DNA of 64,000 nt from Gilvibacter sp. (GTDB taxonomy: Bacteria > Bacteroidota > Bacteroidia > Flavobacteriales > Flavobacteriaceae). Positions 5,706-46,790 of the stretch are shown piece after piece. Below the pieces are notes generated by a model. That model was not told the DNA's origin. It worked only from the letters and a program-made list of their open reading frames with translations, and ran no database searches. The position numbers and the translations under genes are program-made. Numbering within the stretch: the stretch's first letter is position 1; the number at the start of each line of letters is the position of its first letter. The stretch is taken from positions 1 through 64,000 of the forward strand of contig NZ_JABSPU010000003.1 of NCBI RefSeq assembly GCF_013214815.1, given 5' to 3'.

Positions 5706-7955
5706 ATGCAAGCTCGATACACATATCTATTGCTTATACTACTTCTGTTTGGATTCGTTCCGATGAGCCTAGCTCAGGTCGATGCCAATAGTGATGGTCG
5801 AACGCGCCTGCAACCTCGTGAGAGTTTTACGCTTAAAGGGAGCATTTTTGACGATGAGCTTTTGGAACCGATCAGTAATGCCAACATCGAAATATCAGGG
5901 GGCGCTTACACTACAACAGATGCCGCAGGAGACTTTAGTATTCGCGCGCGCATTGGGGATCAACTCATCGTGACCAGTGATGCTTTTGAGACGGTTTATT
6001 ATGAAATTCAGGACGATCAATCGGTTCGGATTTTGGTCAAAAAAGCACCAGGCACAGAAAATGATGAACTAAGTCAGAAGAAGTTATCTTCTAGAAAGCA
6101 GCAGTACACCAATGTGTTTCCTAAGTATATTGATTCTGCCAAGAGTTATCTAAAGCAGGATGCGAAAAAGAGTATTGAGTATGTGACACAAGCTTTGGAA
6201 TCTACTCGCGATCAGCGCCCAACTCCGGCACAAAATGGAATTGCCTTTGAGACCTTGGGGGACATCAACGACTATTGGTTGCAACACGATCTGGCGGTGG
6301 AGAACTACAAAAGCAGTCTGCGCAGTCTTCCTAAAACAGAAGTAGAAATAAAGCTGGCGCGCACCTATCGCAACAACAAGAATCATCAAGAGAGCCTACA
6401 GGCCTATCAGCAGCTCTTGGAAAAGGATCTGACCAACTATCAAACTGTAGAGGTCTATGAAGGGCTGGGCGATACCTATATCGCCATTGGAGACTTAGAA
6501 AATGCAGTAGACAATTACCAACGCGGTCTTCAAGTAGCCAAAGATCATTTGATCACTCCAAAGATTACCAATCTTAATTCAAAAATTGGAGAGGCATACG
6601 CCGCAGCGGGTTCGCCAGCAATTGCCAATGATTATTTTGAAAGCTCTTTGGAATTAGCGGCAGATGAAAGCGAGGTTCGCTCCGTAAAAGAGCAAACTAA
6701 GGTGGCCGACTTTTACAATGCCAACCGTGACTTTGACAAAGAGATCAAGCTGCGTACGGAGACGCTCAATATGTTGGACTCTATTGACCTTTCTACCATT
6801 ACGGCAGCGGATGATGTGGTAGAAGACTTGACTCCACAACGTCAGAATTACAAAATTGCCAACGCTTTAGTCGCTCAAGACAATTACCAAGCGGCCATTC
6901 CTTACTTAGAGAAAAGTATTGCCCAGGCGGACGCGAGTGGTGATCTCGTGGTCCAAAAAGACGCGACCAGAAAACTATCAGAGGTATTCCGAGATCTGGG
7001 CATGGCAGAGAAGTCCGCCAGCAGTTATGAGAATTATGTTGCCGTGGTGGATGAACTCTATCGCAGAAAGGAGCAGGAGCTGTCTCAAGCAGCGCGTTTC
7101 AGTCGTGATATTGCCTTAAAGCAAAACCGCATTACCAGTTTGGAAAATGAGCGACAACTCAATGAGTCGCGCTATAAATTGGCTTTTGAGAATCAAGAAC
7201 TCATCGAAAAGAACAACAAAGTTCAAAAATGGATCATTGCCTCACTTGTAGCCTTGGCTGTCTTGCTTTTAGCGATGGCTTATTTCTTAAACAAAGGCAT
7301 TCGTCAGCAGAAATACGCCAACAACCTTTTGGCGTTAAAATCGTTGCGCACTCAGATGAATCCGCATTTTATTTTCAATGCCTTGAATTCTGTAAACAGT
7401 TTTATAGCCAGTAGTGACGAGCGCACTGCCAATAAATATCTATCTGATTTTTCCAGGCTGATGCGTTCCGTACTGGAAAACAGCGAGGAGGATTTTATTC
7501 CGTTATCTAAAGAGATCGACCTGTTGAGTATTTACACCAAATTGGAGCACTTCCGTTTTAAGGATAAGTTTGATTATGAGATCATCTTAGATGAAAAACT
7601 TCATGTAGACGATTTTGTGATCCCGCCTATGCTGCTGCAGCCCTATATTGAGAATGCGGTATGGCACGGACTGCGCTATAAAGAGACCAAAGGCAAATTG
7701 GAAGTGCGTTTTGATCAAACTGATTCAGAGACCATCACCATTACCATCACCGATGATGGAATAGGACGTAAAAAGTCTAAGGAGCTCAAAACGGCCAATC
7801 AGAAAAAGCAGCAATCTAAAGGAATGGGTAATATCAAAAAACGTATCCAGATCCTGAATCAAATGTATAAAGACAAGGTAGACGTCACTGTGAGTGATCT
7901 GCAAACAGATGGTAGCGGTACACGTGTAAGCCTTATTGTAAAGAAAGACCAATGA
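5706..7955 (+). CDS. Carboxypeptidase-regulatory-like domain + TPR sensor histidine kinase of the LytS/His_kinase type
   Basis: N-terminal beta-sandwich-like segment (FTLKGSIFDDELLEPISNANIEI), TPRs, one TM helix, then LRTQMNPHFIFNALNSVNSFI and HATPase motifs. Confidence 0.9.
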   Translation: MQARYTYLLLILLLFGFVPMSLAQVDANSDGRTRLQPRESFTLKGSIFDDELLEPISNANIEISGGAYTTTDAAGDFSIRARIGDQLIVTSDAFETVYYEIQDDQSVRILVKKAPGTENDELSQKKLSSRKQQYTNVFPKYIDSAKSYLKQDAKKSIEYVTQALESTRDQRPTPAQNGIAFETLGDINDYWLQHDLAVENYKSSLRSLPKTEVEIKLARTYRNNKNHQESLQAYQQLLEKDLTNYQTVEVYEGLGDTYIAIGDLENAVDNYQRGLQVAKDHLITPKITNLNSKIGEAYAAAGSPAIANDYFESSLELAADESEVRSVKEQTKVADFYNANRDFDKEIKLRTETLNMLDSIDLSTITAADDVVEDLTPQRQNYKIANALVAQDNYQAAIPYLEKSIAQADASGDLVVQKDATRKLSEVFRDLGMAEKSASSYENYVAVVDELYRRKEQELSQAARFSRDIALKQNRITSLENERQLNESRYKLAFENQELIEKNNKVQKWIIASLVALAVLLLAMAYFLNKGIRQQKYANNLLALKSLRTQMNPHFIFNALNSVNSFIASSDERTANKYLSDFSRLMRSVLENSEEDFIPLSKEIDLLSIYTKLEHFRFKDKFDYEIILDEKLHVDDFVIPPMLLQPYIENAVWHGLRYKETKGKLEVRFDQTDSETITITITDDGIGRKKSKELKTANQKKQQSKGMGNIKKRIQILNQMYKDKVDVTVSDLQTDGSGTRVSLIVKKDQ

Positions 7956-8683
7956 TCTTAAAAGCCATCATCGTAGAAGACGAAGAAACCAGCCGGGAAA
8001 TTCTAAGAAACTACCTCAAAAAATACTGTCCTAGTGTGGAACTGGTAGGGGAGGCAGCTGGAATTGAAGAAGGCCTGACCTTGATTCGCAATAATAGTCT
8101 GGAGCTGGTATTCTTGGATGTGGAAATGCCTTATGGTAACGCTTTTGATCTTTTGGACAAGGTAGGCGATAGAACCTTTGAGACTGTATTTGTGACGGCC
8201 TATGATCACTACGCCATCGATGCTCTTAATGCACACGCTTCTTACTATTTGCTTAAGCCGATCTCAATTGATGAGCTCATCAAGGCTGTGGACTATGTTA
8301 CAGAGATCAAACAGCAAGAAGAGCGTTTGCAAGATCAGGTTTTGGTGCCCTCATCAAAACAAGTTCAAGGGAAGATCACTATTCCGCTTCAATCGGGTTT
8401 TGAGGTTTTGGCGGTAGATGATATTCTCTATTGCCAGGCCGATGATAATTATACACAGATCTATTTAGAGAAGGGCAAGAAGCTGGTCAGTAAAACCCTA
8501 AAATACTTTGAAGATATCCTAGCCGATCAAGGCTTTGCCAGAATTCACAAATCCTATTTGGTGAATGTCAATGCCGTAGTAGCTTACAACAAAGGCAAGG
8601 GTGGGAGTGTGGTTTTGAGCAATGGAAAAGAACTCTTGGTCTCAGCCGCGAAGAAATCCGCCTTACTCTCTTACTTTAAATAA
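7952..8683 (+). CDS. LytTR family DNA-binding response regulator
   Basis: Receiver (VEDEETSREIL...VFLDVEMP...LLKPI) plus LytTR domain (DILYCQADDNYTQIYLEKGKKLVSKTLKYFEDIL...RIHKSYLVN); 4-bp overlap with the kinase. Confidence 0.95.
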   Translation: MILKAIIVEDEETSREILRNYLKKYCPSVELVGEAAGIEEGLTLIRNNSLELVFLDVEMPYGNAFDLLDKVGDRTFETVFVTAYDHYAIDALNAHASYYLLKPISIDELIKAVDYVTEIKQQEERLQDQVLVPSSKQVQGKITIPLQSGFEVLAVDDILYCQADDNYTQIYLEKGKKLVSKTLKYFEDILADQGFARIHKSYLVNVNAVVAYNKGKGGSVVLSNGKELLVSAAKKSALLSYFK

Positions 8684-35391: not shown

Positions 35392-35481
35392 TTGTTCGTC
35401 GAGAGTAAAATGTCATTCGTCGATACTTAATTACTGTTAATCAAAATTTTTGACCGTTCGACGAGTTGGATTTTAAGTTTG
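35392..35481 (+). promoter_or_regulatory. EPS promoter P1 (ugd): tandem LytTR-like half-sites and -7 box TAAGTTTG
   Basis: Half-sites TTGTTCGT (35392), TCATTCGT (35413) and CTGTTAAT (35434), each 21 bp apart; -7 box at 35474. Confidence 0.65.
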
Positions 35482-35509
35482 CTTCATCAAAACCCAAATA
35501 CACTAAGAA

Positions 35510-36871
35510 ATGAAAATAGCAATTGTAGGAAGTGGATACGTAGGACTAGTGACTGGAGCATGTTTTTCTGAGGTCGGAGCCGAGGTAGTTTGTATCGATG
35601 TAGACAAGCAGAAGATTGATAACCTCAAAAAAGGAATTATACCAATTTATGAACCGGGGCTAGATACACTCATTACCAGAAATTATGATAAAGGTCGCTT
35701 GGATTTTACTACGGATATCTCAAATGCAGTAAAAGAGGCGCAGATTATTTTTATTTCCGTTGGTACCCCGCCTGATGAAGACGGAAGTGCTGACTTAAAG
35801 CACGTGATTGCTGTGGCAAGAGATTGTGGTCGTCATATGGATGACTACAAACTGGTTGTTACGAAAAGTACTGTTCCTGTAGGAACTTCATTAAAGGTTA
35901 AAACAGCAATCAATGAAGAGCTTGCCAAGCGCAATGCAGAGATTCCATTTGACGTTGCTTCAAATCCAGAGTTCTTAAAAGAGGGAGCAGCGATAAACGA
36001 CTTTTTAAAGCCTGATCGTATTGTTCTTGGAACGGAGTCTGAAAGAGCTGAAAAACTTTTAGCCAAACTTTATAAGCCATTCACCCTCAACGGACATCCA
36101 GTTTTATTTATGGACATCGTTTCTGCGGAGATGACAAAATATGCTGCCAATTCAATGTTGGCAACCAAGATTAGTTTTATGAATGACATCGCGAATCTAT
36201 GTGAAATAGTTGGAGCCGATGTAAATAAAGTGAGACGCGGTATTGGATCGGACGGACGTATCGGGAATAAGTTTATCTATCCTGGTATCGGATACGGAGG
36301 ATCCTGTTTCCCTAAAGATGTCAAAGCATTGATCAAAACCGGAAAACAGCACAAATACGATCTAAAAGTTCTTGAAGCTGTGGAGGAAGTCAACGAAGCG
36401 CAGAAATCCGTGCTTTTCAACAAGATCAGTAACTTCTTTAATCAAAAGCTGGTTGGGAAAACTATTGCTATCTGGGGGCTTTCATTCAAACCACAAACCG
36501 ATGATATGCGTGAAGCTCCTTCTTTGGAGATCATCACTAAACTCTTGGAGGCGGGAGCTAAGGTTAAAGCCTATGACCCTGTAGCGAATGAAGAAGCTAA
36601 ACATCATTTTGGTGACAGTATTGCTTACTACGACAATCAGTATGAAGCATTGAACGGAGCAGATTGTCTGGCAGTTTTAACAGAATGGTCTGAGTTCAGA
36701 ATTCCTGATCATCAAGAGATTCAAACCCGCATTAATGCAAAAGTAGTTTTTGATGGACGTAATATTTATGACATCAATGACATGCACGATCGCGGATATC
36801 ACTATCAGTGTATTGGAGTGGATACGAGCAAGAATGCTCCAATTATTAAGTCAGAGCTGATTTCGGCTTAA
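35510..36871 (+). CDS. ugd: UDP-glucose 6-dehydrogenase
   Basis: [46 protein letters not shown] catalytic Cys. Confidence 0.96.
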
Positions 36872-36894
36872 TCCAATTTTCAAAATACAATAGT

Positions 36895-37872
36895 ATGAAA
36901 GCAAAGAGAATTTTAGTCACGGGAGGTGCAGGATTCGTAGGTTCCCACCTTTGTGAGCGCTTGCTCGCCGATGGACATGAAGTTTACTGTTTAGATAATT
37001 ATTTTACAGGTAGAAAGGACAATGTGATGCACCTGTTAGGCAATCCTAGATTTGAGTTGATTCGCCACGATGTGACCACACCTTTCTTCATTGAAGCCGA
37101 TGAGATCTACAATTTGGCTTGTCCGGCTTCTCCTGTTCACTATCAATACAATCCGATCAAAACCCTAAAGACTTCTGTCATGGGAGCTATGAATATGCTG
37201 GGGTTAGCTAAACGTCTAAACGCCAAGATTCTTCAAGCCTCAACAAGTGAGGTCTATGGAGATCCAGAGGTACACCCTCAAGCAGAAGGTTATTGGGGGC
37301 ATGTTAACCCAATCGGAGAGCGTTCCTGTTATGATGTGGGTAAACGCGCTGCAGAAACCCTATTTAAAGATTATCACGTTCAAAACAATGTGAGAATTAA
37401 AATTGTGAGAATCTTTAATACTTACGGCCCTAAAATGAACCCAGAGGATGGGCGTGTGGTGTCTAATTTTATTGTCCAAGCACTGCGTGGTGATGACATC
37501 ACAGTTTTTGGAAAAGGAGACCAGACCAGAAGCTTTCAATTCGTTGACGACTTGGTAGAAGGTATGGTGAAAATGATGGATTCCGGGGAAGATTTTACAG
37601 GTCCCGTGAATATTGGAAACCCGCATGAATTCACAATCCTGCAATTGGCACAACGCATTGTCGAGCTTACGGGTTCTGATTCTAAAATAATCTTTAGAGC
37701 GCTTCCGTCTGATGATCCAATGCGCAGAAAGCCAGATATTTCTCTGGCAAAGCAGAAGCTAGACTGGACTCCACATGTGGCCCTAGATGATGGATTGCGC
37801 AAAACGATCGCCTATTTCAAAACTGTTCTTGAAGAGGAGCAGCCTGAATTATTCACCTTGGTAAAAGCATAA
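36895..37872 (+). CDS. UDP-glucuronate decarboxylase / NAD-dependent epimerase (UXS family)
   Basis: [64 protein letters not shown]. Confidence 0.92.
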
Positions 37873-37874
37873 TT

Positions 37875-38261
37875 ATGAAAAAGCAAATACTTGTAGTTGA
37901 CGATGAACAAACCCTGTGTTTACTGCTTCAGAATTTTTTGCAAAAGGAGTATGAAGTGATCAGTAAGAACTCGGGAAAAGAAGCTCTTGAATGGTTGAAA
38001 TCCAATTTGCCAGATCTAATAATTTCTGATATCCAAATGGAAGATATGAGCGGATTTGATCTATTGGAAGAAGTTCGTTTGACGGGCTTTACTAAGCACA
38101 CTCCTATCATCATGCTTTCTGGAAAAACCGAGAGTAATGAACGCATTAAATGCTATAAAATGGGAGCTCAAGATTATTTGACCAAACCATTTAATCCAGA
38201 GGAGTTGAAAGAGGTGGTGAAAAAGAACCTCTTCCCAATTCACTACGCAGCCTCTTGGTAG
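37875..38261 (+). CDS. Stand-alone (CheY-like) response regulator receiver
   Basis: ILVVDDEQTL, DLIISDIQMEDMSGFD, DYLTKPFNPEEL; conserved DD/D/S/K all present. Confidence 0.92.
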   Translation: MKKQILVVDDEQTLCLLLQNFLQKEYEVISKNSGKEALEWLKSNLPDLIISDIQMEDMSGFDLLEEVRLTGFTKHTPIIMLSGKTESNERIKCYKMGAQDYLTKPFNPEELKEVVKKNLFPIHYAASW

Positions 38262-38301
38262 GCACTAAAAACCTTACACAAATCATAATTCAGCCCCGAA
38301 G

Positions 38302-39495
38302 ATGAGAATTCTGTTTGTAGGTACTTATGAGAGATACCTAAATTTTTTCGACAATACTGAAGCAGTTCAAATAACTGCCGTTAGAAACGGATATGAAGCT
38401 ATCAAATACTTAGATAGTAACGCAGGATTGACAGACATTTTGATCTCTGAATACCAATTGCCAGGAAACGATGGCTTGTACTTGTATGAGAAGATCAAAT
38501 CAACTCTGAAATCTCAAGAGATTCCGTTTGTAATCTTACAGCAAGAGTTCAATGGTGGAGTATATAAAAAGGCCTTTGATCTTGGAATAGCAGATTATTT
38601 TGTGTGTAATTCAACCACGCCAGAATCTGTTTTTAAACGTGCTGTGAAATTGGTAGAATCGAAAGATCCAATCATAAAAAAGCAAGCAGTGATGCCTGCG
38701 ATGAAGCCCGTAAAATTACCTTGGTCTAAGCGTTTATTTGATATTGTTTTTGCTTCTACGGCCTTATTGTTGGCTTCACCGTTTTTAGCCTTAATTGCCT
38801 TGGCTATTCGTTTGGAGTCCAAAGGGAAAGTATATTATATCGCTAAACGCGTAGGTAGAAAGACCTTTGACTTCTACAAATTCAGATCTATGCGAACGGG
38901 CTCAGATAAGCTGATTAAGCAGTTGGCTAAAGACAATAATCAATACAGCGCTGTACAGGAAGAAGAGCCGGTTCAACAAGAGCCGCAAAACTGCCCTAAA
39001 TGTGCAGCATTGCCGGAAGGCGAAACCTGTTCACCGATCATATATGTGGACAATGGTTCTCTCTGCGAGAGCTGGCATCATCATCAATTAAAACTCAAGA
39101 AAGAATCGGAATCTACTTTCATAAAAATATCAAACGATCCTCGTATCACCCGAGTTGGTAAGTTCATTAGGAATACCAGTATAGATGAGCTCCCTCAGCT
39201 GATCAATGTACTCAAAGGTGATATGTCCATAGTCGGAAATCGTCCCTTACCAGTATATGAGGCAGAAATGCTTACAGAAGACATGATGTCTAAACGCTTT
39301 CTGGCGCCGGCGGGAATTACCGGTCTTTGGCAAGTAGAATTAAGAGGACAAGGTGGTGTAATGTCTGAAGAAGACCGTATGGCTTTAGACAATAGTTATG
39401 CCGATAAATTTATAGATAACAGCTACTCTTTCTGGTACGATATCAAACTAATCCTGCGTACCATTCCAGCATTGCTGCAGAAAGACACTGTTTAA
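38302..39495 (+). CDS. Pseudo-receiver domain fused to a bacterial sugar transferase (polyprenyl-phosphate phosphoglycosyl transferase)
   Basis: N-term receiver-like segment (DILISEYQLPGNDGLYLYEKI), then PWSKRLFDIVFASTALLLASPFLALIALAIRLESKGKVYY...FYKFRSMRTGSD...ITRVGKFIRNTSIDELPQLINVLKGDMSIVGNRPLP. Confidence 0.92.
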   Translation: MRILFVGTYERYLNFFDNTEAVQITAVRNGYEAIKYLDSNAGLTDILISEYQLPGNDGLYLYEKIKSTLKSQEIPFVILQQEFNGGVYKKAFDLGIADYFVCNSTTPESVFKRAVKLVESKDPIIKKQAVMPAMKPVKLPWSKRLFDIVFASTALLLASPFLALIALAIRLESKGKVYYIAKRVGRKTFDFYKFRSMRTGSDKLIKQLAKDNNQYSAVQEEEPVQQEPQNCPKCAALPEGETCSPIIYVDNGSLCESWHHHQLKLKKESESTFIKISNDPRITRVGKFIRNTSIDELPQLINVLKGDMSIVGNRPLPVYEAEMLTEDMMSKRFLAPAGITGLWQVELRGQGGVMSEEDRMALDNSYADKFIDNSYSFWYDIKLILRTIPALLQKDTV

Positions 39496-39542
39496 CATCA
39501 ATTCTTACAACCGCATGAAATTGTAAAATCTAAGGTAAACAA

Positions 39543-39611
39543 CCATTCGTCTACGCTTATCTTCGGTCAATCGAAAATTAACCCCCTCAGAACGAGACTA
39601 ATGTATGTTTG
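39543..39611 (+). promoter_or_regulatory. EPS promoter P2 (TolC-like gene): LytTR-like direct repeat and -7 box TATGTTTG
   Basis: Half-sites CCATTCGT (39543) and CGGTCAAT (39564); -7 box at 39604. Confidence 0.65.
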
Positions 39612-39638
39612 TGGTGATACATAATCAAAGATTAAACC

Positions 39639-40373
39639 ATGAAAATCAAAATAACACAAGTGTTGACTGTCAGTCTTATCTGTGGGGTATTCCTACAAGC
39701 TTTTGGGCAGGTAGAAAACACCACCGCTCCAAGTTCTGAGTTTGATTTTATACTGCCTAAGGTTGAATTGTTTATCGAGGCTGCACATGCTAGAAGCGGC
39801 ATGCTTAACTACCAAAAACTCGATATTGAAGTCTTAGAGACCGATGTTAAAACTCAAAGTCGTATTTGGTCCCAAAATATGGGGGTAAGAGGCGACCTTC
39901 GCTACGGAACATTCAACAACTTTATCTCCAGTACCACAGGAGCTGAAAACACAAACATTGCCACGCTGAGTCAGCAGCTCAATTACGGAATTGGCTTGTA
40001 TTTGCAGCTACCCATATTTGATGTTTGGAACCGGAAGAATCAGGTGAAACGCGCAAAGTTGGAAGTAGAACAAGCATACAGTCTTGTCGAAGAGCAAAAA
40101 CAAGTTATAGAACAAGAAGTAATTCGCATGTATGAGGCCGTTGTGCTTCGTTATGAGCTCCTCAAAGTACAATCTACCAACTACGGAAACTCCAGAGTAA
40201 ATATGGAAATGGTGGAGAAGGAGTTCAGAAATGGAAACATTATTGCCTATGAATATGTGAGGCTCAATGATATTGCCGCTCGAATCCAATCAGATTACGA
40301 GACAGCCAAATCCAACTTTCTATTGGCTAAGAGATTATTAGAGAATTATACCGGACTAAAAATCGCGCAATGA
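39639..40373 (+). CDS. Half-size TolC/OEP-like outer membrane protein
   Basis: Signal peptide; GLYLQLPIFDVWNRKNQVKRAKLEVEQAYSLVEEQKQVIEQEVIRMYEAVVLRYELL and VRLNDIAARIQSDYETAKSNFLLAKRLLENYTGL; 244 aa only. Confidence 0.75.
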   Translation: MKIKITQVLTVSLICGVFLQAFGQVENTTAPSSEFDFILPKVELFIEAAHARSGMLNYQKLDIEVLETDVKTQSRIWSQNMGVRGDLRYGTFNNFISSTTGAENTNIATLSQQLNYGIGLYLQLPIFDVWNRKNQVKRAKLEVEQAYSLVEEQKQVIEQEVIRMYEAVVLRYELLKVQSTNYGNSRVNMEMVEKEFRNGNIIAYEYVRLNDIAARIQSDYETAKSNFLLAKRLLENYTGLKIAQ

Positions 40374-42757
40374 GACTCATAGAATTTATACGATTATTGC
40401 TTAAGCATAAGTTTCTTCTAGGAGGCGTTCCGGTCTTGTTGGCGGCATTGGTATTCTTGCTGACCTCAAATCCCAAGTACGACTACTACTCAGAAACAAT
40501 GATGTTTACGGGCCTTGCAACGGGATCCTCCATAGAGATGGATAAATCCTTCAACTATTTTGCCACAAACATCGCTTTTGACAACCTTATTAACATTGTC
40601 AATTCACGGGATACTCAAGAAGAAGTAGCTATTCGACTGTTAAGTCAGCATTTAATGCTAGACGGAGCTGATCCGAGATATATCTCAGAAGCCTCATATG
40701 AAGCTTTTATGGAAACTGTTCCAGAAGAGCTCTTTGATTTGGTGGTACAATCAGACGAAGTAGCTGACGCCACCACCGAGGTAGATAGTACGGTTGCTAC
40801 GGAGCTTACAGCCCTATATCCGCGTACGATCAATCGACAGGCCTACGAGCAAACGGTAGCTAACCTAACAGCCTATATGATGGAGACCAATGACAATTTT
40901 GTCTATGAGCTGTTGAATTATGAAGACGATCATTATTCCATCAAGGCTATTTCTGAGATAAAGGCTGTGCGTATGTCCAATAGTGATTTGGTCAAGTTGA
41001 GCTATCAAGTCGATGACCCTGGGATATGTCAGCAGACCTTGGCGATTTTCTCGGAAGTCTGTCAAAGAAGATATAAAGGAGTTAAAGAAAATGGATCCGA
41101 TGCCGTAGTTAAGTACTTCGAAGAGCAATTGCGTTTGGCTGAGCAGAAATTGAAGCAGGCGGAGAACACGCTGTTGCAGTTTAACAAGGATTACAATATC
41201 ATCAACTACTACGAACAGAGTAAGGCGGTGGCTATTGTAAAGGAAGAGATGGAGGTAAATTACAATACCAAGAAGGCGGAGTTGGCAGGTGCAATTGCTT
41301 CTACGGAGGTCATTGAACAAAAACTGAAGATCCAAGAGCAGGTTCAAGCAAAGACTCAAGAGGTTTTGGATAAAAAGAAGCGCTTGGGTGAACTGAACTT
41401 TGAAGTCGCTATGTTGGAATCTGCAGATTCAGATGACGAAAATACTCAGCAGCGTATTAAAGCTTTAGAAGATGAGTCAAAGCAGTTGGACATTGATATT
41501 CGCGCTGGAATCAATGAACTGTATTCATTTCAGAATTCTGTAGAGGGAGTTCCCTTGGGAAAAACTTTACCAGATTGGATGGATAATGTAGTGAAGTCAG
41601 AAGACCTCAAGGCTAAGCTCGACGTGATGGAAGACAGAAACGAAGAGTTTAAGCAACAGTATTCCATTTATGCTCCAGCCGGGGCAAACTTAAAGAGAAT
41701 TGAACGAGAAATTGCAGTTTCTGAGCAAGGATATCTCGAGATATTGCACGGTTTGAATTTAGCGAAGCTCAAGTCTCAAGACAATGAGTTGAGTTCGAAC
41801 TTAAAAACGATGGATCCACCATATTATCCGTTGTCTCCAATTCCAACTAAACGCAAGTTGTTGGTTATAGCCTCACTTTTTATTGGCTTTATTCTGTTGC
41901 TGGCCTTGATTTTAGGAATGGAGTTCTTTGACAATACTCTTAAGAATTTAAAGCGATCCACCAAGATCATCCGTGTGCCAGCATTAGGTTTAGTTTCCAA
42001 GGTTCTTCACAATCCTGGAAAGGTGAATCAGGATGTAGTCTTGCAACGATTGATGCAGATTATTGTGCAAAATCTCAAACGTGCTTGCAGAACGGAAGCC
42101 AATACAGAATCTACCAAAACCGTCATGATGCTCAGCACTCAGGATAAGGAAGGCAAGACTGTGATTACGCAAAACACGGCTAAATTTCTGGCCGATCAAG
42201 GCAAGCGTGTTTTAGTATTAAATTATGAGGATGTCGCTTACCAAAGTGAGAGTAAACCAGGAAGGTATCCGATCCTGAATCGTATTCTTGGCTACTCAGA
42301 TACACGCGTTGGAGTGAACAACGCCTTCTTAAAAACCACATTGACTTCAATCAACAATATTGATTGTATCACCTACAGCGATTCTGATGCGTTCAACGCG
42401 GTGGGAAGCTATCAAGAAATTTTAGAAAAAGCGGGCATTAGCTTAGAGTACACACCTGATTTTGTGTTCATAGAACTTAAAGGCTTGCTCAATAATAATT
42501 ACCCAATGGACCTTGTGGCAAATGCTGATTTGTCAATTCTGGTTTGCCGCGCCAACCGTTTGTGGTCGGAGGCTGACAGTAATATGGTTGAGAACTTAAA
42601 GTTCCTTACCAAGAATAAGGTCCAGCATGTACTCAATGGAGTAGAATTGGAAGAAGTAGAACCGATTTTAGGAGAGTTTCCTAAGAACAGATCTGCATCG
42701 CGCAGAAGAATTAAAGACCTCTTGCGCTTACAGTTTCACGCCAGAGAGTCTATTTAG
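40370..42757 (+). CDS. Wzc/GumC-like polysaccharide co-polymerase with degenerate C-terminal ATPase domain
   Basis: Wzz topology with two TM segments, long coiled coil, C-term STQDKEGKTVITQNTAKFLADQGKRVLVLNYED. Confidence 0.85.
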   Translation: MRLIEFIRLLLKHKFLLGGVPVLLAALVFLLTSNPKYDYYSETMMFTGLATGSSIEMDKSFNYFATNIAFDNLINIVNSRDTQEEVAIRLLSQHLMLDGADPRYISEASYEAFMETVPEELFDLVVQSDEVADATTEVDSTVATELTALYPRTINRQAYEQTVANLTAYMMETNDNFVYELLNYEDDHYSIKAISEIKAVRMSNSDLVKLSYQVDDPGICQQTLAIFSEVCQRRYKGVKENGSDAVVKYFEEQLRLAEQKLKQAENTLLQFNKDYNIINYYEQSKAVAIVKEEMEVNYNTKKAELAGAIASTEVIEQKLKIQEQVQAKTQEVLDKKKRLGELNFEVAMLESADSDDENTQQRIKALEDESKQLDIDIRAGINELYSFQNSVEGVPLGKTLPDWMDNVVKSEDLKAKLDVMEDRNEEFKQQYSIYAPAGANLKRIEREIAVSEQGYLEILHGLNLAKLKSQDNELSSNLKTMDPPYYPLSPIPTKRKLLVIASLFIGFILLLALILGMEFFDNTLKNLKRSTKIIRVPALGLVSKVLHNPGKVNQDVVLQRLMQIIVQNLKRACRTEANTESTKTVMMLSTQDKEGKTVITQNTAKFLADQGKRVLVLNYEDVAYQSESKPGRYPILNRILGYSDTRVGVNNAFLKTTLTSINNIDCITYSDSDAFNAVGSYQEILEKAGISLEYTPDFVFIELKGLLNNNYPMDLVANADLSILVCRANRLWSEADSNMVENLKFLTKNKVQHVLNGVELEEVEPILGEFPKNRSASRRRIKDLLRLQFHARESI

Positions 42758-42819
42758 GTGGCGGCAATTTTAGCTGTTTTTGAATAAAAATGGCTTTTAG
42801 ACTAATCTATGGATTTTTT

Positions 42820-42888
42820 CCATCGGTCTATACAAAATGGCTGTCAGTCGAAATATAATAAACGCAACACGGTACGCAAGTATGTTTG
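42820..42888 (+). promoter_or_regulatory. EPS promoter P3 (wzx): LytTR-like direct repeat and -7 box TATGTTTG
   Basis: Half-sites CCATCGGT (42820) and CTGTCAGT (42841); -7 box at 42881. Confidence 0.65.
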
Positions 42889-42912: not shown

Positions 42913-44307
42913 ATGAAATCGCTTGTAAACAAATTGATCCGAGAAGACAATTTCCTGTCCTTGACAGGTAATGTGGTGATCGCCATACTTGGGATTGGAG
43001 GGTTTGCGATTCTTGCCCGGACGCTGAGCAAAGAGCTCTTTGGGGAATGGGTGTTGTTTGTGGCTGCGGCCTCACTGTTGGAAATGTTTCGCTTTGGAAT
43101 TACCAGTATCGGATTGATACGATTCCTATCCGGAGCCAATCAACAGGAGCGCAAGGCACTCATTGGTGCAAATCTGACCATAGGCATTGTATTTTCTGTG
43201 CTGATTGCCTTGATCGTTTTTGGAATTAATTGGTTTTTTAGCGACGCATTAGCGGACTCAGGATACGTTTTGTTTTTTAAATATTATCCAGCCTTGGTGT
43301 TGGTAAATCTCTTCTGGAACAATGCTATATGTATTCTACAGTCGGATCTTAGTTTTGGTAAAATATTGACCATTAAATCAATCAATAGTGGTCTGTTTTT
43401 CCTTTGCCTGCTGTTTCACGCATTTGTAACGGCCTTGACCTTAGATCAATTGGTGTATTGCCTAATCGCAGTGAACCTTGTGACATCGGTATTTACCTTT
43501 CTTAAAGGATGGGATGAATTGGCCGCGTTGGGTCAAACTACAAAATCTGCAATTAATACGCTATTGAACTTTGGAAAGTATACAACCATTACCCTTTTGG
43601 GAACAAATCTGCTGCGCAACGCAGACAGTTTTATAATCGGTTTAAGTCCATTAGGACCAGCAGCAGTTGCTTTGTACAGTATTCCGGTGAAACTAACGGA
43701 GCTTCAGCAAATTCCATTGAGAAGTTTTGCAGCAACCGCTTTCCCAAAGATGTCAAAAGCAAGTGGAGCTGGAGATCTTAAGAAATTAAAAGATTTATTC
43801 TATACCTATTCTGGAGCTTTGACCTTGCTTTTCGCCCTAGGTAGCTTGGTCACATTCTTATTCGCAGACTTATTGGTTCTGATCTTATCTGGAAACCAAT
43901 ACGCGGGAATCGACCCGATTACTGGATTTAATGCTGCAGATATTTTAAGAGTTTTTGCTTTGTATGGGCTGTTGCTGCCTATAGATCGCATGACTGGAAT
44001 TGGATTGGACAGCATCAACAAACCCAAGATCAATGCACTCAAAGTATTGGTTATGTTGAGCTTTAATATTGTAGGGGACCTCATCGCCATTTTCATGTTT
44101 GAATCCTTGATGATGGTAGCTTGGGCTACAATTCTATTCACCTTCATTGGGATATGGCTTGGGTTTGTATTTATGGACCGCGCTGTCGATTTGTCTTTTA
44201 GACGAATTTTTACTGAAGGAATTAAGTTTTACGTTCAGGGTTGGGCTCAGTTAAAGACCCGACTTGGAAGTAAAAATGTTGGACCCGTAAATCGCGAATT
44301 GCCATGA
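42913..44307 (+). CDS. Oligosaccharide flippase (Wzx-like)
   Basis: Polytopic; GNVVIAILGIGGFAILARTLSKELFGEWVLFVAAASLLEMFRFGI. Confidence 0.88.
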   Translation: MKSLVNKLIREDNFLSLTGNVVIAILGIGGFAILARTLSKELFGEWVLFVAAASLLEMFRFGITSIGLIRFLSGANQQERKALIGANLTIGIVFSVLIALIVFGINWFFSDALADSGYVLFFKYYPALVLVNLFWNNAICILQSDLSFGKILTIKSINSGLFFLCLLFHAFVTALTLDQLVYCLIAVNLVTSVFTFLKGWDELAALGQTTKSAINTLLNFGKYTTITLLGTNLLRNADSFIIGLSPLGPAAVALYSIPVKLTELQQIPLRSFAATAFPKMSKASGAGDLKKLKDLFYTYSGALTLLFALGSLVTFLFADLLVLILSGNQYAGIDPITGFNAADILRVFALYGLLLPIDRMTGIGLDSINKPKINALKVLVMLSFNIVGDLIAIFMFESLMMVAWATILFTFIGIWLGFVFMDRAVDLSFRRIFTEGIKFYVQGWAQLKTRLGSKNVGPVNRELP

Positions 44308-45791
44308 ACGAGCTGACCAACATAAATCCATTTAATAACGGGCGAGGAAATGGTTCAGCAGCTGTTTTGCGAACTCAAATACTTGTGTTGATAGCTGGAG
44401 TAATGGTGCTAGCGGCTGTATTATTGGCCAAACTTGAATTACTTGGTGGTGTTGCCTGTATTGGCCTTGTTGGCGTATTAGGATTCCTGTATCTGGTTTT
44501 TCAATATCCGCGTTTTGGGATTTTGGCCATACTGGTGATGGGATTCTTTGCCACTGGACTTTCAAGATATGTACCGCTGCCGTGGGGCTTGTCTGTAGAT
44601 GGCATAATAATGCTGGTTTATCTCGCATTATTCTTTAAAGCATTCAAGACTAAAATTCAATGGCGAAAGGCAAAGTCAATGCTGACTTTAGTTACTAGTC
44701 TTTGGTTTATCTATGTTCTGGCACAACTAGGAAATCCAGAAGCCGTAAGTCTAGAAGCTTGGTTCTATGCGATGCGTGGACTTGGTATGTATCAGTGTTT
44801 GTTTATTCCTTTAGCCTTTGTGTTGTTTAGCAAACCGAGAGACCTCAAACTCTTCTTTATAATGTGGGGAGTATTGTCTGTTTTGGGGACACTGAAAGGA
44901 ATCATGCAATTCAAGTTTGGTGTAGATCCTTTTGAACAGGCTTGGTTGGATGCCGGTGGTGCAGAAACACACGTCTTGTTTGGAAAACTCAGAATCTTCT
45001 CATTTTATTCTGATGCTGGACAATTTGGAGCTTCTCAAGCCCATGCTGGATTAGTCTTCGGAATTTTAACCCTCTTTTGTAAGCACAGTAAAAAGATGCG
45101 AATCTTCTTTGCTGGTGTTGCCTTGATGGGTCTTTTCGGTATGGTGATTTCAGGAACTCGAGGCGCTATTGCTGTACCGGCAATCGGTGGTATGATGTTT
45201 CTGATCGTTAGAAAAAACATAGCGATACTTGCCTTAGGCGCGCTTATGGGCATTGGAGTATATATCTTTTTTGCGCATACAAACATTGGTCAAAACAACG
45301 CAGAGATCAGACGGATGCGCACTGCCTTTGATCCTAATGAGGCTTCGCTTCAAGTGCGTCTTAACAATCAAAAGAAATTATCTGGCTATCTCGCCTCACG
45401 TCCGTTTGGTGGAGGTGTAGGAGCCACAGGCAACTGGGGGCAACGTTTTTCCCCACATACCTTTTTGGCCAATACTGCCACGGATAGTTGGTATGTAATG
45501 ATCTGGGCCGATACCGGAGCCTTTGGTCTAACAATTTATTTGCTCATCATTTTTGGCATCCTGTTTCAGGGGGCGTATAACGTAATGAGTAAAATCAAAG
45601 ACGATTGGCTTAAAGGGCAGATTACAGCTCTTGTAGCGGGTATGGCCGGAATAATGATGGCCTCTTATGGAAACGGTGTCTTTGGCCAGTTTCCAACAGG
45701 AATTTTAATGTACCTGGGCATGGTTTTCATGTTCGTGGCTCCTCAATGGGAGACTAAATATAAGAATACACTAAAGCAGCAGCTTTACTAA
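44304..45791 (+). CDS. O-antigen ligase/polymerase family protein (Wzy-like)
   Basis: Polytopic; MVISGTRGAIAVP motif and large loop with ASRPFGGGVGATG...DSWYVMIWADTGAFGLTIYL. Confidence 0.85.
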   Translation: MNELTNINPFNNGRGNGSAAVLRTQILVLIAGVMVLAAVLLAKLELLGGVACIGLVGVLGFLYLVFQYPRFGILAILVMGFFATGLSRYVPLPWGLSVDGIIMLVYLALFFKAFKTKIQWRKAKSMLTLVTSLWFIYVLAQLGNPEAVSLEAWFYAMRGLGMYQCLFIPLAFVLFSKPRDLKLFFIMWGVLSVLGTLKGIMQFKFGVDPFEQAWLDAGGAETHVLFGKLRIFSFYSDAGQFGASQAHAGLVFGILTLFCKHSKKMRIFFAGVALMGLFGMVISGTRGAIAVPAIGGMMFLIVRKNIAILALGALMGIGVYIFFAHTNIGQNNAEIRRMRTAFDPNEASLQVRLNNQKKLSGYLASRPFGGGVGATGNWGQRFSPHTFLANTATDSWYVMIWADTGAFGLTIYLLIIFGILFQGAYNVMSKIKDDWLKGQITALVAGMAGIMMASYGNGVFGQFPTGILMYLGMVFMFVAPQWETKYKNTLKQQLY

Positions 45792-45803: not shown

Positions 45804-46790
45804 ATGAACTACCGATCTATTAAAGACTTAAACGAAATCATACTCAAGAGATTGAGTATCATTCCAAGAGATATTGACCTCATAGTGGGTGTTCCAAGAA
45901 GTGGAATGCTTCCAGCAAACCTGTTGGCACTTTATCTGAATCGTCCATACACTGATATTGACTCCTTTTTAAAAGGACATGTCTATAAAGCCGGTGCACG
46001 CGGACAATTCATTAATATAGATGCTATTAAAAAAGTGCTCGTGGTTGATGACAGTATTGCCTCGGGTGGTGCTTTGCGTGAAGTTAAAGAGCGTTTGAAG
46101 GACCAAGCAGAGAAATTCAAAATTGAATACGCAGCAATTTATGTTGCGGCTGGAAAAGAACGCGATGCCGATTATTACTTTGAAACGGTTCCTACGCCGC
46201 GTTATTTTCAATGGAATATCTTCAATCATACCTCACTAAGCAAAGCTTGCTTCGATATAGATGGTGTGCTTTGTGTGGATCCTACTCCAGATCAGAATGA
46301 CGATGGTGAAAAGTATCGCAGTTTTATTTTGAATGCAGCACCCTTGTATCTGCCAGGCAGTAAAATAGGTACGCTAGTAACCTCTCGTTTGGAAAAGTAC
46401 AGAGAAGAAACCGAAGTGTGGTTGGAAAAGCATGGGGTTCAATATGATAAATTGGTGATGCTAGATCTTCCTGATGCAAAGGCGCGTCAAAGATTGAACA
46501 ATCATGGACAGCATAAGGCCAATGAGTTTTCAGAAAGTCAATACTCATTGTTCGTTGAAAGCGAACTGCCTCAGGCTTTAGAAATCAACAGAATTACCAA
46601 GAAGCCTGTATTCTGCACAGAAACATTCTCTATGGTTTATGATTCACAGTCCCTCTTATACAACATCAAGAGTGGAAGACATCTACCTATTCTGAGAAAA
46701 GTAGCCCTCAAGCTTCGTGATATTATCAAAGGGAAAAAATCGACCTCATTGGTTCCGAGTAGTAAATCCTTTTCAGCCAAGCAATTTTAA
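45804..46790 (+). CDS. Phosphoribosyltransferase-HAD-like fusion protein
   Basis: PRPP loop VLVVDDSIASGGAL after DLIVGVPRSGMLPANLLALYL; C-terminal HAD-like CFDIDGVLCVDPTP...LVTSRLEKYREETEVWL. Confidence 0.8.
   Translation: MNYRSIKDLNEIILKRLSIIPRDIDLIVGVPRSGMLPANLLALYLNRPYTDIDSFLKGHVYKAGARGQFINIDAIKKVLVVDDSIASGGALREVKERLKDQAEKFKIEYAAIYVAAGKERDADYYFETVPTPRYFQWNIFNHTSLSKACFDIDGVLCVDPTPDQNDDGEKYRSFILNAAPLYLPGSKIGTLVTSRLEKYREETEVWLEKHGVQYDKLVMLDLPDAKARQRLNNHGQHKANEFSESQYSLFVESELPQALEINRITKKPVFCTETFSMVYDSQSLLYNIKSGRHLPILRKVALKLRDIIKGKKSTSLVPSSKSFSAKQF

Follow-up and report, generated by a model that had tools for sequence, protein, structure and literature searches.

A conserved putative LytTR operator shared by EPS promoters and an H-NOX operon in Flavobacteriaceae

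The window analysed here, a stretch of 64,000 nucleotides from contig NZ_JABSPU010000003.1 of Gilvibacter sp., contains an EPS locus whose genes fall into three rows, each behind a predicted promoter of its own (P1, P2 and P3; Table 1). A LytTR response regulator gene lies elsewhere in the same window.

Table 1. Promoter elements and genes of the EPS locus, and the LytTR gene of the window
Feature	Position	Strand	Basis or remark
LytTR response regulator named by the sequence-only reading	7952-8683	+	very unlikely as the cognate regulator
P1 distal (third) half-site TTGTTCGT	35392-35399	+	sequence
P1 operator: half-sites TCATTCGT (35413-35420) and CTGTTAAT (35434-35441), conserved CAAAATTT tail	35413-35449	+	leave-window-out E 2.6e-6
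P1 -7 box TAAGTTTG	35474-35481	+	sequence; 60 nt past element start
ugd, UDP-glucose/GDP-mannose dehydrogenase, first gene after P1	35510-36871	+	Pfam; synteny
NAD-epimerase, after ugd in the P1 gene row	36895-37872		Pfam; synteny
REC-only protein, P1 gene row	37875-38261		Pfam; synteny
REC-like/WcaJ sugar transferase, P1 gene row	38302-39495		Pfam; synteny
P2 operator: half-sites CCATTCGT (39543-39550) and CGGTCAAT (39564-39571)	39543-39579	+	leave-window-out E 3.1e-10
P2 -7 box TATGTTTG	39604-39611	+	sequence
TolC-like outer membrane protein (OEP, PF02321), first gene after P2	39639-40373	+	Pfam; synteny
795-aa protein, Wzc-like by position, without Pfam match; after the TolC-like gene	40370-42757		
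P3 operator: half-sites CCATCGGT (42820-42827) and CTGTCAGT (42841-42848)	42820-42856	+	leave-window-out E 1.1e-7
P3 -7 box TATGTTTG	42881-42888	+	sequence
wzx flippase, first gene after P3	42913-44307	+	Pfam
wzy, after wzx	44304-45791		Pfam
Phosphoribosyltransferase-like protein, after wzy	45804-46790		Pfam
Glycosyltransferases, remainder of the P3 gene row	to about 52200		Pfam

The sequence-only reading had aligned three elements at these promoters, beginning at 35414, 39544 and 42821, without gaps, and both its sequences and its coordinates proved exact. The -7 boxes share the form TAnGTTTG in all three promoters, and each begins exactly 60 nt past the start of its element. Every element comprises two half-sites 21 bp apart, and P1 has, as had also been claimed, a further copy that precedes the next half-site by 21 bp. 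Nineteen of 36 columns are invariant across the three elements, compared with 2.4 expected for a fixed alignment. Under a search-aware null, in which shuffled 150-bp upstream regions were aligned three at a time in every possible gapless way and the best alignment was taken, that alignment averaged 13.2 invariant columns and reached at most 17 (300 trials). A leave-window-out profile, built from 24 sites that all come from other genera, ranked the P2, P3 and P1 sites first to third in the window, the next match having an E value of 1.5; the window sites score 22.8-35.4 bits, as against 11.7 bits for the best match in 30 shuffled windows.

The genome (2.99 Mb, 93% complete) was scanned with patterns and with a sequence model. 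Model R1, which derives from alignment A2 and contains no site of contigs C90 or C24, gave four matches with E<1e-3 in the whole genome besides the three EPS sites, and the next best match had an E value of 0.17; the full arrangement is thus not at background frequency. Two of the four matches (C90:9340 and C90:9288) lie upstream of an H-NOX operon, one (C90:15580) lies upstream of a STAS-domain gene that directly follows the LytTR gene of that contig, and one (C24:15790) lies upstream of a gene for a secreted protein. A 29-column pattern allowing three mismatches was unspecific, with 19 matches and another 19 in the reversed control. The pattern of the whole arrangement, including the -7 box, matched three times in the window's genome, three times in G224 and once in G364 among 400 genomes of the family, and the reversed control gave none; the three matches in G224 fall inside the EPS locus of that genome.

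The EPS locus itself is conserved in Flavobacterium, Polaribacter, Lutibacter and other genera, where it comprises ugd, epimerase, REC, REC-like sugar transferase, OEP, Wzc-like, wzx, wzy, phosphoribosyltransferase-like (PRT) and glycosyltransferase genes. The REC-sugar transferase served as the probe for orthologous loci, the TolC-like protein being a poor one. Related loci of other genera carry the element too, at a spacing of 60 or 61 nt, and profile searches found three elements each in L060 (apparently the same genome as G407), L063 (F. lotistagni) and L071 (F. frigidimaris). The positions that the element occupies within the locus vary by genus (ugd/OEP/wzx, REC/OEP/PRT, ugd/wzc/PRT or ugd/OEP/wzy), which indicates that the copies are not merely inherited sequence. 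Nine of the 16 EPS-locus genomes checked (L057-L059, L061, L066, L067, L070, L073 and L083) have an orthologue of the LytTR regulator discussed below and no confident element at the EPS locus, so the link from regulator to EPS locus is not universal and the wiring changes between species.

The consensus operator is CCATTCGTCTACACTTAACTTCCATCCATCGAAATATA, followed by about 23 variable bases and then by TAnnTTTG; its half-site is CCATTCGTCKACACTTA. Self-identity across 47 sites is highest at a lag of 21 (0.50, with 0.45 at lag 25, 0.40 at lag 17 and 0.17-0.35 at the others), and the second half-site is conserved less than the first. TAnnTTTG stands 60 or 61 nt after CAT (61 or 62 after the start of CCATT) in 38 of these sites and 63 nt after the start of CCATT in one more, and most of the remainder have CAnnTTTG near the same place. 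Conservation is limited to the operator and the -7 box, the spacer between them being variable, and the alignment of operator sites shows no conserved TTG at -33. LytTR proteins bind 9-bp repeats that are spaced by 12 bp and directly precede the -35 region (PMC6193735). The direct repeats and the 21-bp period found here follow that layout and, together with the LytTR genes of one subfamily that adjoin the elements in other genera, support the earlier suggestion of a LytTR-type operator.

These adjoining genes point to a regulator outside the window. In L060, L062, L071 and G364, the first element is immediately preceded by a LytTR gene of a single subfamily, and the LytTR orthologues beside elements share 68-73% identity with the first of them. 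The window's genome has eight LytTR genes, one of which belongs to the element-linked subfamily; its product is 59-63% identical to the element-linked members, as against 39% or less for the other LytTR proteins of the genome, and has a REC and a LytTR domain (PF00072, 5e-18; PF04397, 2e-20). This protein, encoded on another contig at G000:C90:14717-15433, is the likely regulator.

Its gene is the last of a predicted operon (G000:C90, 9440-15433) that encodes a REC protein, an H-NOX protein, a PAS-GAF kinase, a FIST (NosP-like) protein, a kinase, an Hpt protein and the LytTR protein, all on the same strand and closely packed or overlapping. Pfam matches are clear for HNOB (E 3e-37), FIST (3e-21), FIST_C (1e-23) and LytTR (2e-20), and weak for Hpt (0.002). 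The H-NOX (HNOB) gene overlaps the gene for a PAS-GAF-HisKA-HATPase protein, and the FIST protein (PF08495 and PF10442) is followed by the second kinase. The same module occurs in G224 and G364, where H-NOX likewise adjoins kinases; that of G224 has neither FIST nor the second kinase. The closest solved chain to the H-NOX protein is 6bdd (252 bits over 177 residues), and 6bdd and 6bde are presumably both the H-NOX of Kordia algicida, a very close homologue of the C90 protein. The Kordia protein is known as a structural and gas-binding object, and the open literature searched reports no downstream regulon for it. We rejected an assignment of the regulator to the LytTR Regulatory System (LRS) class, a class with positive autoregulation (PMC4227749, PMC6193735), because in such a system a partner membrane inhibitor, and no phosphorelay, controls the LytTR protein; here the regulator carries a REC domain, its gene follows those for kinases and Hpt, and no Pfam-recognised membrane inhibitor gene adjoins it.

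The same half-site marks the H-NOX operons inspected. It occurs within 450 bp upstream (at most 2 mismatches in 17) in all 21 operons, taken from as many genomes with operon starts hand-set near the REC gene, and it has a partner (at most 4 mismatches) at 20-22 bp in 19 of them; the corresponding frequencies in random windows of the same loci are 4.5% for the half-site and 1.9% for the partnered half-site. Among the 400 genomes, the element (E<=1e-3) was found in 125, the LytTR orthologue in 157 and H-NOX in 146. Element and LytTR coincide in 119 of the 125 element genomes (Fisher p 3e-59), and with one genome per genus (237) the odds ratio between them is 126 (p 1e-36), compared with 2.3 between the element and LytTR proteins of the 7952 type; the genomes are related, so these p values overstate independence and are descriptive, a limit that the genus table and the non-orthologous positions soften and do not remove. 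In five of the six genomes that have the element and no LytTR orthologue, the element has E>5e-4. H-NOX is present in 140 of the 157 LytTR genomes, with the LytTR gene 2.1-6.3 kb away from it in 123 of 135 cases, and some of the 17 in which H-NOX was not detected may use another input. The strong (best) elements lie within 20 kb of the LytTR gene in 115 of 149 cases. This linkage, the co-occurrence and the autoregulatory sites lend indirect support to the elements as putative LytTR-family operators.

We therefore favour, as the probable explanation, a model where the elements would be tandem operators of 21-bp period for a LytTR regulator that forms the output of an NO-sensing (H-NOX/NosP) phosphorelay, regulates its own operon and controls matrix genes. 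The haem sensors would set kinase activity, and phosphate would pass via Hpt to the LytTR protein. A LytTR dimer would then bind both half-sites, which immediately precede the place of the missing -33 box, and would recruit RNA polymerase at TAnnTTTG, so that binding would activate rather than repress. The predicted targets of this switch are the three EPS operons, the regulator's own operon, the neighbouring STAS-domain gene and the secreted-protein gene. Matrix production in biofilms would thereby be linked to NO in about a third of the Flavobacteriaceae genomes sampled. NO is the putative H-NOX ligand by homology to 6bdd, and its binding could either raise or lower EPS expression.

The sequence-only reading had tentatively suggested a regulator within the window, the LytTR protein encoded at 7952-8683, which has a TPR kinase of its own. 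Both its presence in the window and the direct-repeat binding mode common to LytTR proteins speak for this candidate, yet it is very unlikely to bind these operators: its identity to the subfamily encoded next to the elements is 24%, its orthologues, found in 128 of the 237 genus representatives, hardly track the element by the odds ratios given above, and R1 gives no match at the 7952 operon. We give next to no credence to the idea that the element lacks any regulator-specific function and is a leftover of the duplication of one promoter, or a transcribed leader or antitermination element. One locus does hold three similar copies, but the variable spacer between conserved operator and conserved -7 box, the different genes that the copies front in other genera, and the recurrence of the half-site before H-NOX operons and outside EPS loci all argue against such an origin. 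Lying upstream of the -7 box, the element would not be transcribed, and Rfam yielded two tRNAs only, so no known leader RNA is involved.

Two further readings keep the relay and change its sign or its input. It is unlikely, in our view, that the LytTR protein represses the EPS promoters (or that its phosphorylated form releases them), with the relay derepressing matrix genes. The precedent would be HnoC of Shewanella, which is described as repressing until it is phosphorylated and as feeding back on the regulon it controls (PMC8738867); the operators described here, however, lie wholly upstream of the -7 box, with a fixed spacing of 60 or 61 nt and no conserved -33 box, which is the layout of LytTR activator sites. 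Similarly small is the chance that the same circuit responds to something other than NO, with H-NOX and FIST sensing O2, the redox state or some other ligand. In obligate anaerobes, H-NOX proteins use a distal tyrosine to bind O2 (PMC7356049), not all FIST proteins are NosP, and the search for solved structures turned up no relative of the FIST protein; but the H-NOX protein is very close to the solved chain 6bdd, O2 rapidly leaves the pocket of Kordia (Ka) H-NOX in simulations (PMC7356049), and the bacterial H-NOX/kinase pairs described are NO sensors (PMC8738867).

The NO-responsive LytTR relay that we favour resembles several known systems in part. Among the regulators with which its output may be compared, SypG of Vibrio fischeri is a sigma-54 type regulator and HnoC of Shewanella oneidensis is, to our knowledge, not a LytTR protein; H-NOX proteins themselves are widespread. 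In the V. fischeri HnoX-HahK/syp system (PMC12369376), an NO-binding H-NOX controls a histidine kinase as it would here, and an Hpt domain relays the signal to a response regulator that binds DNA and controls a matrix polysaccharide locus; H-NOX inhibits HahK, and NO lowers syp biofilm. The output in that gammaproteobacterium, however, is SypG through SypF/SypE rather than a LytTR protein, and no operator common to EPS promoters and the hnoX operon is known to us there. The HnoC network of S. oneidensis likewise combines H-NOX and a kinase with response regulators, one of which is a transcription factor that feeds back on its regulon, but it has other outputs via c-di-GMP, HnoC is presented as a repressor, and its regulon is not described as EPS operons (PMC8738867, citing Plate and Marletta 2013). 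The LytTR regulators AgrA, ComE and HdrR share with the present system direct repeats of the 9-bp class with 12-bp spacing upstream of the -35 position (PMC4227749, PMC6193735); they belong to quorum-sensing or membrane-inhibitor systems, whereas the LytTR protein described here ends an H-NOX/FIST/Hpt relay and has a half-site of its own. In the open-access literature searched, the H-NOX outputs described are proteobacterial and run mostly via c-di-GMP or quorum sensing; none is described for Bacteroidota, and no H-NOX/LytTR/EPS circuit is reported.

It is reasonably likely that this dual-sensor (H-NOX plus FIST/NosP) NO phosphorelay with a LytTR output, which about 35-40% of the sampled Flavobacteriaceae genomes have, acts through an operator of its own as a master switch of the biofilm matrix, covering several EPS loci and surface proteins, and it would then be the first transcriptional regulon described in Bacteroidota that links NO to matrix. 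If this is true, NO would govern how a widespread bacterial group attaches and forms slime, and sequence alone, through the operator, would suffice to predict the regulon. Our analysis names a specific candidate regulator, describes an operator of about 36 bp whose geometry relative to the promoter is fixed, and lists genes that any culturable flavobacterium would allow to be tested.

Matrix and cell surface are the theme common to the predicted regulon. Two arrangements recur. In one, the relay or its elements stand before an EPS locus of the type seen in the window, the genes fronted differing by genus. In the other, elements precede the gene for an 868-aa protein bearing a type IX secretion tail (DUF6923), that for a CAP-domain protein, and a STAS/flippase/glycosyltransferase cluster. 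Secreted proteins with similar N-termini have an element upstream of their genes both in this genome (L005) and in G224 (L219).

The tandem operator of genome G224, which lies ahead of the H-NOX operon, would probably serve well as a naturally occurring probe in binding assays. In G407 (L197, L198), another of the genomes compared, the LytTR regulator is present twice, with one copy located within the H-NOX operon and the other adjoining the EPS locus, approximately 700 kb apart.

Features of the EPS locus and of element-associated loci (G000 denotes the Gilvibacter genome)
Feature	Location	Remark
Near-perfect tandem TCATTCGTCGACACTTATCCG/TCATTCGTCGACACTTAT	L121:5041-5081 (G224)	Upstream of H-NOX operon
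REC-only protein, then sugar transferase with REC-like N-terminus	window 37875-39495	
Phosphoribosyltransferase-domain protein	window 45804-46790	PF00156
Small STAS-domain protein	L122:10757-11047 (G000:C90)	Element upstream
Secreted protein	L005:663-1415 (G000:C24)	Element upstream
Secreted protein	L219:1699-2466 (G224)	Element upstream
868-aa DUF6923 protein	L209:8733-11336 and equivalents	Type IX secretion tail

Within the EPS locus, the pairing of a REC-only gene with a transferase carrying a REC-like N-terminus is conserved across Flavobacteriaceae and other Bacteroidota, which suggests that the initiating sugar transferase is under post-translational control. In most of the EPS loci that were inspected, the PF00156 protein is retained close to wzy and the glycosyltransferase genes, with an identity of approximately 65-74%.

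The 868-aa protein, a candidate matrix protein or adhesin, lies downstream of the relay (the predicted H-NOX operon) and the element in most genomes with the second arrangement. In several relatives (L200, L209, L213 and L227), the element likewise precedes a STAS gene, accompanied by a flippase and a glycosyltransferase. The element-preceded secreted proteins of G000 and G224 have the N-terminal motif QVGINTT in common.
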